Below, piece after piece: positions 3 to 30,022 of a stretch of 64,000 nt of DNA. The position numbers and the translations under genes were made by a program. Position 1 is the first letter of the stretch. The number at the start of each line of letters is the position of its first letter. The notes under the pieces were generated by a model. It saw nothing but the letters and a program-made list of their open reading frames with translations, was not told the origin of the DNA and ran no database searches. The stretch is from the NCBI RefSeq assembly GCF_001308875.1, contig NZ_KQ465112.1:1-64000 (forward strand), in the 5' to 3' direction. Source of the stretch: Lysinibacillus sp. ZYM-1 (GTDB lineage: Bacteria; Bacillota; Bacilli; Bacillales_A; Planococcaceae).

Positions 3-1080
3 TTTCCTTTTTCTATGTCTTCAGTTATTTACACAAAATATTTTATACTCTCTTATGGTGACTTAGATGATGATTTTCTTGAAGCGATATTAATAAAAAA
101 GTTAACCGATAATATACAAAGTTTCTATAGAAAGCGAAGATGTAGAGATAAGATTTGTCCAGTCTTATAAAACAAACCAAGTTTTTCACAGAAATGTATG
201 TTTACATCAGTTGGTCGAGATACAAATAGTTCCTAAGAACCCAAAAGAAAAACAATGGTTTTTAGAAGTGCTTTCTAAACTCAAAGATTTGTTCACCTTA
301 TTAGTTGGAAGAAGAATAGGTACTTTAAGTTTGGAATTTATGCAAGGAAATCAACGAGCAGCATACTATAACTATGCTTATATCGATTTTAAGCACAATA
401 GTACATTAGACTTTAACCAATTGCTTATTCCTTATCAAACAGTGGGTAATTTTTTTGAGACTATTTTAGAAAAGTGGTTTTCATTAGTAGATAATCCAGC
501 TCAATATGGAATTATAAAATTGCTGATATCTAACTTTTATTTGGCGCAATTTTCAGAGACTATTTTTTAAAATTATATGCAAGGTATAGAAGGGTATCAT
601 AGAATGATGTATAGCACAGGGTACATTTCTGAGAAGGAATTTAGACCATACAGGAAGAGTATTTCTAATTTTATAAATAATTTAGATTTAGATAGCTGTT
701 TAAAAAACTCTATAAAAGAGAGATTAACCCATAGTTATGAGTATTCATTACAAAAAAGGTTATCTGATTCCATTTTTAGTATTGATAAATGTATTTGGGA
801 ATTATTCTTTAGTACGGAAGAGGAAGTAGAGCAATTTATACAAGATATTAAAAAGGCGAGGAATAATTTAACACACCCCAATGATCAAAAAACCACTAAT
901 GATAGTTTAAATTGTTTTATAAATTATAACAGGATATTAAAAGTTATATTTATGTGTATCCTATTTAAAGAACTTGGTATTACCGAAGAGATTATAAGGG
1001 ATTGTTTATTAAATGATGGAGAATACAGTTGGTTTATGCCAAATAAACCTGAAAGGAATTTTGAACTTCCTAACATATAA
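3..1080 (+). pseudogene. Broken HEPN-domain (ApeA-like) gene, 5' end outside window
   Basis: The gene is read in pieces. Frame 3 is open from the left edge to a stop at 168-170. Frame 1 is open from about 106 to a TAA at 568-570 and continues in the same frame to 1080. The last part (167 codons from 577) contains KKARNNLTHP, so Arg and His are four residues apart (nt 859-876), the Rx4-6H signature of HEPN RNases. It also has the MQGIEGYHR helix typical of the C-terminal HEPN of ApeA-type abortive-infection proteins. Changing the TAA at 568 to TTA (Leu) would restore one continuous reading through that helix, so I infer a nonsense mutation plus a frameshift near 110-165. The HEPN signature is seen; the ApeA family assignment is from memory and moderate. 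A two-gene reading is possible but less likely. Confidence 0.55.
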
Positions 1081-1117
1081 ATAACGAGGTCGAATAATAA
1101 GAGCGCCAAGCATTATG

Positions 1118-1354
1118 CTAGAGCGCTTTTTCTTCGTCTACTTCTACAAAATCAATTATCTCAGTTATATCCTCAATCCCCAAAGTCTCAGCGATCCTCT
1201 CGATATGTCCAAAGTTGATATTTCTTCTCTTACCGTTATTCAATTCGCTTAGTGCTGCGTGTCTTATATCGCATTTCTCCGCTAACTTTCTCAATGAGCC
1301 GACCTTGTACTTTTCAATAATGTAATCAATCTTAACAACTACTTGCTTAGCCAT
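1118..1354 (-). CDS. Small Xre-family transcriptional repressor
   Basis: This 78-residue protein is a single helix-turn-helix domain. Residues 5-65 show the Xre/Cro pattern (SLRKLAEKCDIRHAALSELNNGKR as recognition region, then IERIAETLGIEDITEII), similar to YozG-type HTH_26 proteins. A short acidic tail follows. An AGGAGG site lies about 8 bases before the ATG, which supports the start. It is divergent from the small gene at 1467, and the shared spacer holds two copies of a palindromic motif overlapping the forward promoter. I infer that it represses that promoter and perhaps its own. Its size and setting are typical of phage or integrative-element regulators. Confidence 0.85.
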   Translation of the reverse strand: MAKQVVVKIDYIIEKYKVGSLRKLAEKCDIRHAALSELNNGKRRNINFGHIERIAETLGIEDITEIIDFVEVDEEKAL

Positions 1355-1377
1355 TTAAAATTCCTCCTAAAACACAC

Positions 1378-1437
1378 TTGACGTTACGCAATAGCGTACC
1401 ATATAATGATAACAGAAGTGGTACTTGTAAGCGTACC
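1378..1437 (+). promoter_or_regulatory. SigA-type promoter with two Xre-like operators
   Basis: TTGACG (1378-1383) and TATAAT (1402-1407) are 18 bases apart and point at the gene at 1467. The spacer holds TACGCAATAGCGTA (1385-1398), a perfect TACGC/GCGTA inverted repeat. A second half-matching copy, TACTTGTAAGCGTA, lies at 1422-1435, 37 bp further on. Binding at the first would block RNA polymerase. Binding by the divergent Xre protein is inferred from position only. Confidence 0.65.
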
Positions 1438-1466
1438 GAAAGTAAAAATTAATGGGAGGTTGTTAT

Positions 1467-1724
1467 ATGATTACTCAAATGCAAATTTTCGAAATTGAGC
1501 CAGGTTATTCGTATGTTGTAGAAAGAACTCAGATTATTGAAGGTGTATATCTAGAAGTCTTTAAGCAACCAGGATACGAAGATGATGCGATTTTGTATAT
1601 CGGTGATAATGAGATTTTATTTAAGTGGGATGATGAAGCACGCTCTATCTTCTCCGAATTGGATGCAGCAGAACCTATCGAATTGCTAGCGATCCTTGCG
1701 CAATCACCGAAAGTATCAGCTTAA
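1467..1724 (+). CDS. Small acidic protein of unknown function
   Basis: This 85-residue protein is rich in Glu and Asp, with alternating hydrophobic positions suggestive of beta strands (residues 3-60) and an amphipathic C-terminal helix. I recognise no family. The frame also has an ATG at 1452, but that codon overlaps the GGGAGG ribosome site (1453-1458), so the ATG at 1467 is the better start. It is transcribed from the promoter at 1378 and is probably the target of the divergent Xre repressor. Its transcript would run on into the row of hairpins beginning 4 bases after the stop codon, so the protein and the structured RNA may form one unit. Confidence 0.6.
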   Translation: MITQMQIFEIEPGYSYVVERTQIIEGVYLEVFKQPGYEDDAILYIGDNEILFKWDDEARSIFSELDAAEPIELLAILAQSPKVSA

Positions 1725-1727
1725 ACT

Positions 1728-1890
1728 GAATCATACTCGCGCCAACGAGTTGATGCGTCCGTTTTGCGCCAACATTACGGGCAATATACATGCTATTGTC
1801 AGCACCAACTGGCTTTAGCAAACATATACGAATGATCATTGCGCCAACAATGGTCGTTGAAAGCTAGGTGCGCCAACGCCTAGCTTTTCT
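1728..1890 (+). ncRNA. Array of five hairpins sharing the loop GCRCCAAC
   Basis: Five consecutive stem-loops each present an 8-base loop: GCGCCAAC at 1739-1746, 1766-1773, 1841-1848 and 1870-1877, and GCACCAAC at 1802-1809. The stems differ in sequence but pair. They are ATCA-t-ACTC/GAGTTGAT; GTCCGT/ACGGGC with an open region next to the loop; TGCTA-tt-GTCA/TGGC-tt-TAGCA; a 10-bp stem at 1831-1840/1849-1858 with two G-U pairs; and a 9-10-bp stem at 1860-1869/1878-1887. The last is followed by TTCT and could end transcription. A constant loop on varying stems implies selection on an RNA (or cruciform DNA) structure. The strand is inferred from the upstream gene. I know no family that matches. 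Confidence 0.6.
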
Positions 1891-1933
1891 AATCTTATTA
1901 CCAGAGTATCCGTTAATGGAATAGAAAAATCCA

Positions 1934-2266
1934 TCATAAATATTGAAGAATTAAATTATATAATGCTATGGAAAGCCCTAAAATACTAGCTTTCATTTTA
2001 GCTGGATGATTTCTTTCACTTCGAAACAAGTAAAAGAATACTACTATAAATCCTAAAGGAATCCAAAGCTGAAAGATACCATCTTTTGTGCTGCGAGAAA
2101 AGATTGGAGCAATGTAAGTACTAATTAGAAAGTATAAGTAAATAGTAAAACGTCTTGTTTCTAATTGCTTGCTCCACTTTACTAAAAGAAAAATAATGAT
2201 TATCGCAATAATCGTAATATGTAAGGGTGGTAGAAAAATAGAACCGCCACCAAATTTAAATTCCAC
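1934..2266 (-). CDS. Small integral membrane protein, unknown
   Basis: This 110-residue protein has four predicted membrane segments (about residues 14-30, 42-56, 66-83 and 91-107) separated by short basic loops such as KWSKQLETRR and FRSERNHPAK. The start is GTG at 2264-2266, supported by an AAAGGAGGG site 8 bases upstream. No family is recognised. It lies on the strand opposite to its neighbours within the accessory strip, and nothing around it indicates a function. Confidence 0.6.
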   Translation of the reverse strand: MEFKFGGGSIFLPPLHITIIAIIIIFLLVKWSKQLETRRFTIYLYFLISTYIAPIFSRSTKDGIFQLWIPLGFIVVFFYLFRSERNHPAKMKASILGLSIALYNLILQYL

Positions 2267-2319
2267 TATGTATTCCCTCCTTTATTATAGTATATCACCA
2301 TTTATAGTAAAAATTGTGT

Positions 2320-3135
2320 TTTTTAAGGGAATCCCGTCCAGAAAGGCGTTTGAGTTCGGGTATATATAGTAGGGAGTTTATCGCCTTCATTTCGCCTTAA
2401 TAAACGTGGCTAAAAACAGTTTTAAATCGTAAGTCGACGTATTTATCAACCGAAGACTATAACGCCTAAAACAAAGGTGAATTTACGAACTTACTTCTTA
2501 CTATATGACGGTTTTCATGTTGCAGCGTGAGGACCGTTATTTTTTAAAATTACGATATAGTTAGTGGGTATTTAGACTTGTTTTATGAGTAAAGTGTGCG
2601 GAATTCAAAATTTATCTATATTAGTCAAGTAAGGAGGTTTTAAACAATGGTTGATTTATTTTTCTTGAAAGTGTGCGAAACGGAAATTTTATGTATATAA
2701 GTCAGTAGGTAGCGATTTAAAAGTGTTAACAGAATTTGATTTTACAGACCAATGTAAGTAGGTGAAATTATTTTGTAGAAGTTGTCCCAAAAACAGAGGC
2801 TTTAGTGTGCAGTATATAGTAGAACGAAAATTTTATAAAAAGTGATATCGATTTTTGATTTTAATTCCCTATGTAAAGTGAAGGAAGAAAATTATCAAAA
2901 ACATGTCCGAAACCGAATTTTCATTCGGGTATACAAAGTAGGAGGCAAATTTTTATCGGAAGTGTTAATGAAATTAATTTTTATTCGCAAATATGATAGT
3001 AGGAGATTCAATTTCAACTTTTTTTCAAAAAGTGATATCAAATCGGATGTTTTAGTGTGCTATATAGAGTAGCTAAGTTTTTATGAGGAGTGATATCAAA
3101 AATATCTTTTTACCGAGGAGTATGTAGTAGGAGGC
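2320..3135 (+). repeat. Degenerate ~60-bp tandem array (about 10 units)
   Basis: Units run from AAGTGTKATCNAAA through an A/T stretch containing ATTTT and (C/G)GGTATATA to AGTAGGAGG. The AGTAGG-like ends fall near 2369, 2630, 2703, 2756, 2817, 2875, 2938, 2998, 3068 and 3127. After the gap between the first two, spacings are 53-73 bp with a mean of about 62. The next step of that size reaches the real ribosome site (AAAGGAGAG, about 3186-3194) of the gene at 3203. The copies share short blocks but are strongly diverged. No significant ORF is present. The role is unknown. It may be decayed minigenes, since a GTG often follows each AGGAGG by about 15-20 bases, or a protein-binding array. Confidence 0.5.
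2508..2545 (+). terminator. Intrinsic terminator
   Basis: A 10-bp stem with two G-U pairs (2508-2517/2528-2537, ACGGTTTTCA with TGAGGACCGT) and a 10-base loop is followed by ATTTTTT. No intact gene precedes it on this strand, so it may be left over from a deleted unit. The 240 bases before it (2267-2507) show no gene. Confidence 0.6.
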
Positions 3136-3202
3136 AATTCCGTCGATCAATCGGCAATTCATATACCAAATAAAAACTAATTTACTAAAGGAGAGATTTT
3201 TT

Positions 3203-4000
3203 ATGACACAAACATTAAACCGCATATTCAATGAGGAGAAAGAAAGCTATTTATATTACAACGAGGCTTTATTGAGTAACAACGTAATTATCAAACAATC
3301 AACATTTGAAACTGACGAAGGTTTTCAAACGATAATCGACGTGCTTCATTATAACGATATGGATGCTGTTCAATACACGATATATTGGAGCAATCCATTA
3401 GCAGCGATTCAAGTTTATCAAATTGTTAAGGATATTCATGCGTTATACATCGAAAATACGTTAGGTGATTTCCTGCAATTGATGTACGACTTTGTTTGGG
3501 ATACGATCGTCGGTCCGTTTGTAGCATTCCTAGCCGGAGGATTTACGCAAGCATTCGGAGCAGCTACGGAAATTGTTAACGCATTGTCACCAGTGTTCGA
3601 AAAGGTTGGCGGATGGATTAGCAAGGCGGCGGGCTACCTACGAGAGTTCACTAGTATTCTCGGCAAGGTAAAGGTTCCTGATTGGATCGGTAATATCGGT
3701 TCCGGTGCCGTTAGTTGGGCGAAGAAATTGCTGCCTGGCAAGAGTGACGGAGCCGCTAAATCGCACTATAGCGGAATCAGTGAAGTTCCTTACAATTCGT
3801 ATTATGCGAGATTGCATAAGGGGGAACGCGTTCTTACTGCGCAAGAGAATAAATCATACGATCAAGGCAACGGCAGCAGTTCGGGAGGCGGTGTCGTTAT
3901 CACTGGCAACAACTTCACAGTACGTGAAGAAGCTGACATCGAAAAGATTGCGTATGGGCTAGCGAAATTAATCGAAAGGGAGAGGATGCAACGTGGCTAA
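3203..4000 (+). CDS. Phage tape-measure protein C-terminus on an unrelated N-terminal domain
   Basis: The 265 residues split in two. About 90-265 match the C-terminal end of Bacillus phage tail tape-measure proteins: a hydrophobic region (WDTIVGPFVAFLAGGFTQAF), then ISEVPYNSYYARLHKGERVLT, a Gly/Ser linker, and NNFTVREEADIEKIAYGLAKLIERE. Residues 1-88 are a polar domain that I do not recognise and that is not tape-measure-like. Full tape-measure proteins are several times longer, so this is an internal-deletion or recombination product. AAAGGAGAG sits 8 bases before the ATG. It marks the strip as a decayed prophage. Whether it is expressed is unknown. Confidence 0.65.
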   Translation: MTQTLNRIFNEEKESYLYYNEALLSNNVIIKQSTFETDEGFQTIIDVLHYNDMDAVQYTIYWSNPLAAIQVYQIVKDIHALYIENTLGDFLQLMYDFVWDTIVGPFVAFLAGGFTQAFGAATEIVNALSPVFEKVGGWISKAAGYLREFTSILGKVKVPDWIGNIGSGAVSWAKKLLPGKSDGAAKSHYSGISEVPYNSYYARLHKGERVLTAQENKSYDQGNGSSSGGGVVITGNNFTVREEADIEKIAYGLAKLIERERMQRG

Positions 4001-12865: not shown

Positions 12866-14293
12866 ATGGCTCAAAATTATGATGTTGTCATTTTAGGTGG
12901 AGGTACAGGCGGTTATGTTGCGGCCATCCGAGCTGCGCAACTAGGCTTGAAAACAGCTATTGTAGAGCGGGAGCGTTTAGGCGGAACATGCTTGCATAAA
13001 GGTTGTATTCCAAGTAAAGCCTTACTTCGAAGTGCAGAAGTATATCGTATGGCTAATAAAACGGCTAGTGAATATGGTGTCGAAATTGAAGGTGTGACAT
13101 TGCAATTTGACAAAGTTCAAGCTAGGAAACAAGCAATCGTTGAGCAATTAAGCCAAGGTGTGAATACACTGATGAAAAAAGGCAAAATAGATGTTTATCA
13201 TGGTACAGGACGAATTTTAGGCCCATCTATTTTCTCTCCTATGCCGGGAACGATTTCTGTAGAAATGTCCAATGGTCAAGAGAATGAAATGCTTGTGCCA
13301 ACCAATGTTGTGGTTGCAACTGGTTCGAAGCCGCGAGGTATGGCAGGATTAACAGTTGATGGTCAATATGTGATGAATTCAGATCATGCTTTGGAACTTG
13401 AAAATTTACCAAAATCATTGTTAATCGTTGGCGGTGGTGTCATTGGAATTGAGTGGGCATCTATGCTTTGTGATTTTGGTGTATATGTAACAGTGGTAGA
13501 ATATGGTCCAACAATCTTACCAGCGGAAGATGCAGACATCGTAAAAGAAGTAACAAAACAGCTTGAAAAGCGAGGAGTCCGCATCGTTACGAATGCTCGT
13601 TTAGATACAGATACATTCAAAATTGAAAATGATAACGTTTTCATTTCCGCAAAAGTAAATGATCAGGAAGAAATCTTTGAGGCAGATAAACTATTACTTT
13701 GTGTAGGCCGTGAAGCCAACACGCAAGACATCGGTTTGGAAAATACAGAAATCGAAGTGGAAAAAGGCTTTATTAAAGTGAATGCTTCTTATCAAACGAA
13801 GGAATCACATATGTATGCCATTGGGGATGTGATAGGTGGCTTACAGTTAGCACATGTTGCTTCGCATGAAGGACTGTCAGCGATTGAGCATATAGCGACA
13901 GGTAAAACAGAGCATATAGATGATCTGAAGGTACCGAAATGTGTTTATTCATATCCAGAGGTTGCCAGCATCGGATTAACAGAAGTTTCTGCTAAAGAGC
14001 AAGGTTATGCATTGAAAATTGGTAAATTCCCGTTTAAGGCAATTGGTAAAGCATTAGTAAATGGAGAAACAGAAGGCTTTGTAAAAATTATTGCTGATGA
14101 AGAAACAAATGATATTTTGGGTATTCATATGGTAGGGCCACACGTGACAGATTTGATTGGAGAAGCATCACTAGCTAAATTGTTGGATGCTACACCATGG
14201 GAAATTAGTCAGGCGATCCATCCACACCCATCATTAAATGAGGTTTTAGTGGAATCTGCTTTAGCAGTTGATGATCGTGCTATCCATTTTTAA
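12866..14293 (+). CDS. lpdV: Dihydrolipoyl dehydrogenase (E3) of the branched-chain complex
   Basis: This 475-residue flavoprotein reoxidises the lipoyl groups of the branched-chain 2-oxoacid dehydrogenase. It has the FAD fold VVILGGGTGGYVAA (7-20), redox disulfide Cys42/Cys47 (GGTCLHKGCIPSK), NAD fold GGGVIGIEWAS (about 190) and the C-terminal HPHPSLNE with the catalytic His-Glu pair. AAAGGGGG precedes the ATG. It opens the bkd gene row, ahead of bkdAA by 85 bp. In B. subtilis buk precedes it; here leucine dehydrogenase does. Confidence 0.95.
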   Translation: MAQNYDVVILGGGTGGYVAAIRAAQLGLKTAIVERERLGGTCLHKGCIPSKALLRSAEVYRMANKTASEYGVEIEGVTLQFDKVQARKQAIVEQLSQGVNTLMKKGKIDVYHGTGRILGPSIFSPMPGTISVEMSNGQENEMLVPTNVVVATGSKPRGMAGLTVDGQYVMNSDHALELENLPKSLLIVGGGVIGIEWASMLCDFGVYVTVVEYGPTILPAEDADIVKEVTKQLEKRGVRIVTNARLDTDTFKIENDNVFISAKVNDQEEIFEADKLLLCVGREANTQDIGLENTEIEVEKGFIKVNASYQTKESHMYAIGDVIGGLQLAHVASHEGLSAIEHIATGKTEHIDDLKVPKCVYSYPEVASIGLTEVSAKEQGYALKIGKFPFKAIGKALVNGETEGFVKIIADEETNDILGIHMVGPHVTDLIGEASLAKLLDATPWEISQAIHPHPSLNEVLVESALAVDDRAIHF

Positions 14294-29782: not shown

Positions 29783-29910
29783 TATGTTCGAGTAGTAAAA
29801 ATAACCTGTTTACGATTATTTGTAAAGGAGGAATCATTCAATAATTATGCATTATACCTAGAGACATACAATTGCTAACAGCGTATCATAAAGGATAAGA
29901 AAACAACTGT

Positions 29911-30022
29911 AAAAGGCAAACTTTACCGAAAGGGAAGGACGCAAAGCCGTGAGTCTAAACACTATTTCCAGTGTATGATCGTCAGGTTGCCAGGTTCTGT
30001 TCTAGGAGCCTAGGCGAATAGA
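29911..30022 (+). promoter_or_regulatory. c-di-GMP-I (GEMM-I) riboswitch
   Basis: The conserved aptamer core is plain: GGCAAAC at 29915, a CCGAAAGG loop, GGACGCAAAGCC at about 29938, and CAGGTTGCC at 29983-29991 closing the P1 helix (GGCAA/TTGCC). The GAAA tetraloop, its receptor-like segment and a CACT/AGTG helix are present. Downstream, a TTCT...AGAA hairpin containing CTAGG-ag-CCTAG ends at the GGAG ribosome site of the next gene, so control is probably translational. It sits 45 bases before the secreted-protein start. Confidence 0.9.

Follow-up and report, generated by a model that had tools for sequence, protein, structure and literature searches.

Near the start of a contig of Lysinibacillus sp. 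ZYM-1, five consecutive stem-loops carry one loop on stems that differ in sequence, directly behind a small gene. The locus raises the question of whether this constant loop belongs to a functional structure, whether such a structure would act as DNA or as RNA, and what might read it. A preliminary description of the locus had offered two kinds of answer: an RNA presenting several copies of a binding loop (a sponge or an antitoxin-like RNA), or a replication or recombination site that extrudes cruciforms. Coordinates below are those of the window, the whole 64,000-nt stretch that was analyzed (contig NZ_KQ465112.1, positions 1 to 64,000).

The hairpin array and its operon

Folded as RNA, positions 1730-1888 of the + strand form five hairpins in tandem, with a predicted energy of -60.4 kcal/mol versus -40 +/- 4 for shuffled sequences (z -5.13, a stability matched by 0 of 200 shuffles). 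Folded as DNA, the - strand does not stand out (z -1.41). The octamer GCGCCAAC occurs at 1739, 1766, 1841, and 1870 (+), and its variant GCACCAAC once, at 1802. Both strands of the 64 kb together hold four copies of GCGCCAAC, a count reached in 2 of 100 shuffles (mean 0.97). The octamer's terminal G and C are predicted to pair with each other, leaving the hexaloop CGCCAA as the constant single-stranded part. The five consecutive hairpins with a constant loop and differing stems are therefore far beyond chance, while the 8-base loop originally described is better regarded as a hexaloop plus a closing G-C pair.

The individual units are unequal. Hairpin 1 (1730-1754, +; loop GCGCCAAC at 1739-1746) has a bulged stem and scores 24.2 bits with model R1, whereas hairpin 2 (1757-1782, +; loop GCGCCAAC at 1766-1773), with a weak inner stem of only two pairs adjoining the loop, was not recovered by R1 at E<=1. 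Hairpin 3 (1784-1827, +; 19.2 bits) carries GCACCAAC at 1802-1809 and a 2x2 internal loop. The stems of hairpin 4 (1831-1858, +; loop GCGCCAAC at 1841-1848; 30.1 bits) and hairpin 5 (1859-1888, +; loop GCGCCAAC at 1870-1877; 25.7 bits) are uninterrupted and comprise 11 and 12 pairs, respectively, including the closing G-C. The 3′ arm of hairpin 5 terminates in TTTT (1885-1888) followed by CTAATCTT, making it a weak terminator at best; it is absent from the terminator-scan output. Loop-to-loop spacing is 27, 36, 39, and 29. A repeat finder at default settings returned 0 inverted pairs within 1400-2300, and a de novo scan for hairpins with any common loop hexamer found the CGCCAA array alone in the window. 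Rfam gave no match at the array when applied to the whole window, its sole match being a c-di-GMP-I riboswitch elsewhere (29905-29994, +; 72.7 bits), and four matches, all far under the gathering score, when applied to 1000-3300 at E<=10.

The array begins 5 nt past the stop codon of a gene for an 85-aa protein (1467-1724, +) for which the cut-offs applied gave no family in Pfam, PHROG, or PADLOC. Upstream lies a divergent gene (1118-1354, -) for a 78-aa repressor of the XRE/Cro-C1 type (Pfam HTH_26, E 2.5e-9), in agreement with the earlier placement of the array directly 3′ of a repressor-controlled small gene. A likely operon promoter, TTGACG-18-TATAAT (1378-1407, +), is located between the two genes, together with a palindrome, TACGC-AATA-GCGTA (1385-1398), and GCGTACC half-sites (1394-1400 and 1431-1437) that may serve as operators. 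Since the region 1000-2400 holds 6 promoter-like sites versus 5.3 in shuffles, the promoter call rests on position and quality. Past the array, a convergent gene (1934-2266, -) encodes a 110-aa protein that is hydrophobic by eye; its relatives also lie 3′ of the arrays on contig C8 of the same genome and in G010, and different genes follow other arrays. Two further features of the surrounding DNA were observed: pieces of a broken defence gene at 211-570 and 577-1080 (+), matching PDC-S58 and ApeA-type HEPN models, and degenerate direct repeats at 2591-3130, with AAGTGATATCAAA, TTTTA, and GTAGTAGGAGG motifs, before the next gene. Repeats resembling the latter come after small genes in L314, L317, and L319, in several elements.

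Distribution in prophages

A combination of pattern, DNA, and protein searches with sequence reading identified 14 arrays in 13 of 261 family genomes, distributed over four genera. Two are in the ZYM-1 genome itself (G000), where the second copy is on contig C8, and one is in each of G001, G002, G003, G006, G010, G014, G025, G029, G076, G086, G183, and G187; decayed remnants were recognized in three more genomes (G009, G017, and G022). Each array has 2 to 5 units chosen by their loop. The loop-pair pattern matched 9 of 32 genus genomes, with 0 of 32 for the backward control, and 33 of 261 family genomes, with 14 of 261 for the control, indicating that many matches beyond the genus are coding repeats or chance. 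Model R1 had matches in 48 of 299 class genomes (family members included; strict filters), and only G000 and G107 had matches <=1 kb apart. The pair in G107, 266 bp apart, was rejected as an array because the two copies of a repeat involved are nearly identical and do not differ in their stem; the locus (L462, ~2333 and 2599) is a duplicated repeat carrying two hairpins, one of them with loop GCGCCAAC.

The phage and plasmid collections gave no DNA match to the array. Searching the phages with single representatives of the small proteins C65, C3, and C1 (the last taken from G014 rather than from the window) gave no match, and neither did searching viral_contigs with C65; two exact unit patterns hit 3 and 5 stretches of viral_contigs, with an array in none. 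Other candidates were discarded: among the matches listed, six loci outside the family with at least two loop hairpins (L017, L021, L078, L146, L147, and L180) are short tandem repeats in long open frames, several other stretches proved on reading to be coding-type repeats, and apparent mirror arrays with TTGGCG loops (L311 and L355) have their hairpins within what reads as small coding sequence. These searches found arrays via their loop, so that arrays with other loops could escape. A de novo constant-loop scan of 93 loci, which misses arrays with fewer than three strong hairpins, recovered the CGCCAA arrays with their antisense; apart from these, family loci yielded a single triplet in each of L300, L310 (the same triplet being in the overlapping locus L006), and L355, and viral contigs yielded many repeats. 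As judged by titles and abstracts, none of the publications among the matches listed describes such an element, in a literature search that covers subscription journals thinly.

Annotation of the array loci places them in prophages, and the mobile-element remnant first suspected at this locus can accordingly be named a prophage remnant. An integrase-cluster member is present in 12 of 14 loci, and 12 also have an HTH gene of repressor type (clusters of 7 and 5) that lies upstream in the opposite orientation. Relatives of the 85-aa protein are encoded upstream of 10 of the 14 arrays, nine loci have an apparent tape-measure relative, and a capsid fragment matches SU10_MCP; no gene is common to all 14. 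Because only 1.7 kb separate the window copy from the contig start, an integrase gene spaced as in the other loci would fall outside. Among seven array-free relatives examined, the integrase cluster is present in all seven and one HTH cluster in five, so that these genes are markers of the prophage type and not of the array. Likewise, elements in G004, G011, G016, and G018 have the same small genes without an array. The gene just before the array varies (85-aa family, 73-aa gene, or 120-aa gene), and a variable convergent gene lies 3′ of it in the window, C8, G001, G002, G006, G010, and G014. In L298, a gene for a Spo0A-family response regulator (12970-13761, -; Spo0A_C, E 1.4e-45) lies just before the integrase, consistent with prophages inserted beside such a gene; L302 and L361 have the same gene cluster, which occurs in 5 of 14 array loci, with adjacency not constant.

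Covarying stems, one strand, and a constant loop

To compare the stems, every GCGCCAAC or GCACCAAC in the 14 arrays was taken as a unit, giving 49 units (44 distinct) in a gap-free alignment with remnants left out. Standard pairs fill 272 of 308 stem cells (88.3%), compared with 56.5 +/- 2.2% when the 3′ arms are redealt, and the covariation score is 0.866 versus 0.230 after shuffling; 0 of 500 trials reached either value. Sliding the partner by 1-3 columns lowers pairing to <=53.2%. Because choosing units by their loop fixes the loop and the closing G-C (44 closing-pair cells), the count was repeated with the closing pair excluded: 228 of 264 cells pair, versus ~130 for shuffled arms (0 of 10000 reach). 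The excess persists for one representative per similarity group (20 units; 100 of 120 cells versus 59.6 +/- 5.1; 0 of 10000) and for a looser set of 45 units that allows one mismatch and includes remnants (253 of 315 cells over seven positions versus 146 +/- 10). Counted outward from the closing pair, pairs 1 to 5 are formed in 44, 44, 39, 41, and 43 of the 44 units, the sixth in 27, and the seventh in 34; an internal loop thus recurs at a fixed distance from the hexaloop, behind five pairs.

The imperfect pairs are informative about the strand. Of the cells in the six pairs that adjoin the closing pair, 185 are Watson-Crick, 43 G.U, 3 A.C, and 33 other, and the share of G.U among G.U plus A.C is 0.935, as against 0.70 in shuffled arms (0 of 10000 reach). 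The contrast fades outward, with 55 G.U and 29 A.C over ten positions, and the looser 45-unit set has 45 and 17 (shuffles, 51 and 30). Since the wobbles fit the + strand only, they point to a sense RNA and not to a cruciform; a palindrome kept by DNA repair would favour neither strand. The element acts as a single strand in the operon sense and hence, most simply, as RNA. Neither of the two observations that, according to the preliminary description, would refute a functional structure was made: where homologues retain the loop, the pairing is retained as well, and the spacing of the units shifts by 1-2 nt between homologues, which speaks against a conserved protein frame and rejects a coding repeat. 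The constant loop on covarying stems, proposed from the window as evidence for a functional structure, is in this way upheld for an RNA.

Comparison of the arrays indicates how they have changed. Those of type I (window, C8, G001, G006, G010, G014, and G076) align along their full length; those of type II (G002, G003, G025, and G029) and the arrays of G086, G183, and G187 differ from them in their stems and have the same loop. The orthologous arrays in G010 and G076 lack unit 2, and G003 has lost unit 1. Single loops are damaged in C8, G006, and G076, loop 2 has an extra base in G006 and G014, and the loop of the G006 terminal hairpin (L301, 9578-9605) is reverse-complemented to GTTGGCGC with its arms intact; L287/L307 (G009) show a decayed version of this change. 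When only close orthologues are compared, little covariation is seen (term -0.02; double changes at two pairs), and the strong signal comes from comparing unit with unit. In G187 and G086, a GACGT-N8-ACGTC hairpin with a different loop stands between two units, so the motif is not on every hairpin. The two-unit array of G183 continues into the next gene without an evident terminator; the last unit of type I arrays is weakly terminator-like, and by reading, a terminator-like hairpin follows in others. Taken as a whole, the comparison shows, at the level of sequence, a structured sense RNA under selection in four genera, located behind early small genes and built of redundant units.

Known systems and candidate roles

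Several known systems share features with these arrays. Sponge RNAs such as CsrB and RsmZ, an established kind of repeated-loop decoy, present GGA on many hairpins; the redundant units, the single short motif, and the decoy logic are alike, but no GGA is found in the loops of the 44 array units. Type III antitoxin RNAs (ToxI-like) consist of regular direct repeats, whereas region 1400-2300 has none and the loops are unevenly spaced, so that a type III antitoxin, as a form of the antitoxin-like RNA raised initially, is not supported. Neither Pfam nor PADLOC matched a ToxN-like endoribonuclease among the seven and five window proteins scanned, respectively. The IncI- and IncFII-type antisense RNAs (Inc RNA and CopA), the former serving plasmid copy control, act on their own rep leaders; CGCCAA complements the UUGGCG target loop, but those RNAs sit opposite the leader that they target, and the array is sense and in the 3′ part of an operon. 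For ANTAR regulators, PMC3369931 describes targets made of tandem hexaloop stem-loops in which A1 and G4 of the loop are required. These dual-hairpin targets (eut, nasF, and amiE leaders) resemble the arrays in their small tandem stem-loops, conserved hexanucleotide loops, and nearby terminator, and differ in having A1, G4, and two hairpins instead of CGCCAA or CACCAA (44 of 44 loop-chosen units) on two to five units; the arrays, moreover, lie at the 3′ end of prophage operons. The TwoAYGGAY candidate RNA, named in a table of PMC2864571, is perhaps also among the closest systems, its link to ANTAR being our own reading.

Two further kinds of RNA are relevant here. TIGR arrays (tigRNA), as outlined in PMC12045711, alternate edge and loop repeats with ~9 nt spacers that pair with target strands. 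In both cases phages carry an RNA array in which a short invariant sequence is flanked by variable ones and a terminator lies close to the end; the arrays described here, by contrast, have no edge repeats and no uniform period, only one constant 8-mer at variable spacing, flanks that pair with each other, and orthologous units common to different genomes. Solitary-repeat RNA anti-CRISPRs are, according to PMC10651486, mimics of a CRISPR repeat. The arrays are rated here as a new structured RNA family of a loop-presenting kind already known from ANTAR targets and CsrB, with the loop signatures of those systems absent.

Hairpins with the same loop also occur in other settings. A second prophage RNA family (L392-L419) has one locus in each of 28 family genomes; its three members that were read are ~60-nt antisense RNAs opposite the leader of an early phage gene, with one terminator hairpin and a covarying inverted repeat that encloses a promoter-like TTGT-N17-TAAAAT. 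Counting these three themselves, a model built from them had 38 matches at E <= 2.7e-4, spread over 28 of 261 genomes, and the loops differ widely among the members displayed. A universal loop across unrelated prophage RNAs was therefore rejected: the three antisense RNAs had been picked by their loop, and as such lend no support to the array hypothesis. At the centre of L374, L375, and L376 (genus g39), a conserved hairpin, GAAATAAGTTT[GCGCCAAC]AAGCTTATTTC, lies ~320 nt before an ORF that is replication-protein-like by eye, and its wobble pair fits the ORF strand.

The array is read here as the 3′ part of an early prophage transcript. The role tentatively favoured for it, with limited confidence, is to capture a loop-binding factor in trans, as a multivalent decoy or scaffold whose effect would depend on dosage. 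Each unit would consist of the hexaloop CGCCAA, a closing G-C, and about four further pairs, often followed by an internal loop. When the XRE repressor lets go, the operon and array would be transcribed, the array would bind several molecules of the factor, and sequestering the factor would change the expression of host or phage genes at an early stage of induction or infection. That something reads the loop is strongly suggested by its fixity while the stems are rewritten. Since the loop stays constant among varying neighbouring genes, the factor would be of host origin or, at the least, shared by all of these phages, and an operon product is an unlikely reader. This common-factor argument is inferred from absence, in loci of <=~20 kb of which some are truncated or decayed. 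Variable unit number and spacing, together with the loss or decay of single units, fit dosage better than a switch of fixed geometry. A sponge RNA, as proposed in the preliminary description, is accordingly the preferred but unproven role.

In all loci read, the array lies in cis behind the genes, and the read-on in G183 and the tight operon link recall a cis role. A cis-acting element is a rather unlikely alternative; in this reading, a factor governing termination or stability of the operon would bind the hairpins while the early transcript is being made. In its favour are the location of the array where an early operon of small genes ends, the terminator-like last unit or following hairpin, a resemblance to antitermination sites downstream of a Cro-like gene, and the analogy with ANTAR targets, which adjoin terminators according to PMC3369931. 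Yet at least seven loci have a convergent gene, itself variable, just past the array, the next gene in G187 and G086 reads as having its own promoter-like sequence, the ANTAR residues A1 and G4 are absent from 44 of 44 units, and unit number and spacing vary. The same operon-end position and weak terminator, along with the other-loop hairpins interspersed in two arrays, could suit a mere stack of terminator or processing hairpins that share a loop by accident; this is very unlikely, because such hairpins need no fixed loop, yet this one is kept in four genera while stems diverge, and the prophage terminators of the second family have diverse loops. Least probable of all is a DNA-level element, i.e., a cruciform or a replication or recombination site, as had been suggested from the window. 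Inverted repeats within a mobile element speak for it, the reversed terminal loop of G006 demonstrates that such palindromes can be rearranged, and G.T pairs are tolerated in single-stranded DNA hairpins; against it, 43 G.U versus 3 A.C demand one single strand, the - strand is unexceptional as DNA, and the annotated loci have the array in operon sense.

A different kind of partner would be another RNA. CGCCAA is the exact complement of UUGGCG, which the title of Asano et al. 1998, as cited in PMC10724649 and PMC7646527, gives as the target loop motif of ColIb-P9 inc RNA, and which is a YUNR U-turn loop of the sort described in PMC6562991. This complementarity makes a kissing-loop antisense array attractive, one that would repress either a host RNA or one made by a competing element, and the internal loop behind five pairs (sixth pair in 27 of 44 units) would suit it. 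An RNA with an exposed GUUGGCGC was accordingly sought, and no convincing candidate emerged. Of 79 non-array GTTGGCGC copies in the ZYM-1 genome, 26 were examined, and all 26 lie within frames open for >=100 codons; Rfam, applied to 20 of the 26 loci, gave only T-box, SAM, and L10 leader matches. One copy, at the centre of L431 (G000 contig C3, 142314-142321, -), is the loop of an 8-pair hairpin opposite a 265-codon open frame and is a candidate partner. No recurring UUGGCG hairpin was found in the 13 of 14 array loci scanned (L300 left out), TTGGCG is absent from E. coli rRNA, taken as a stand-in, and the antisense RNAs that share the loop belong to a family of diverse loops. The kissing-loop reading is therefore considered improbable, and still more speculative is its extension to a weapon, in which the CGCCAA loops of the early RNA would dock UUGGCG U-turns, through a loop pair that also serves plasmids in copy control, and silence leaders for replication or recombination in mobile elements that compete within one cell.

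Whichever molecule reads the loop, the array constitutes a defined six-base ligand, for which prophages supply natural multivalent arrays as well as natural loop mutants. It may thereby help to fish out what these prophages would exploit, be it an RNA-binding factor or an RNA partner.
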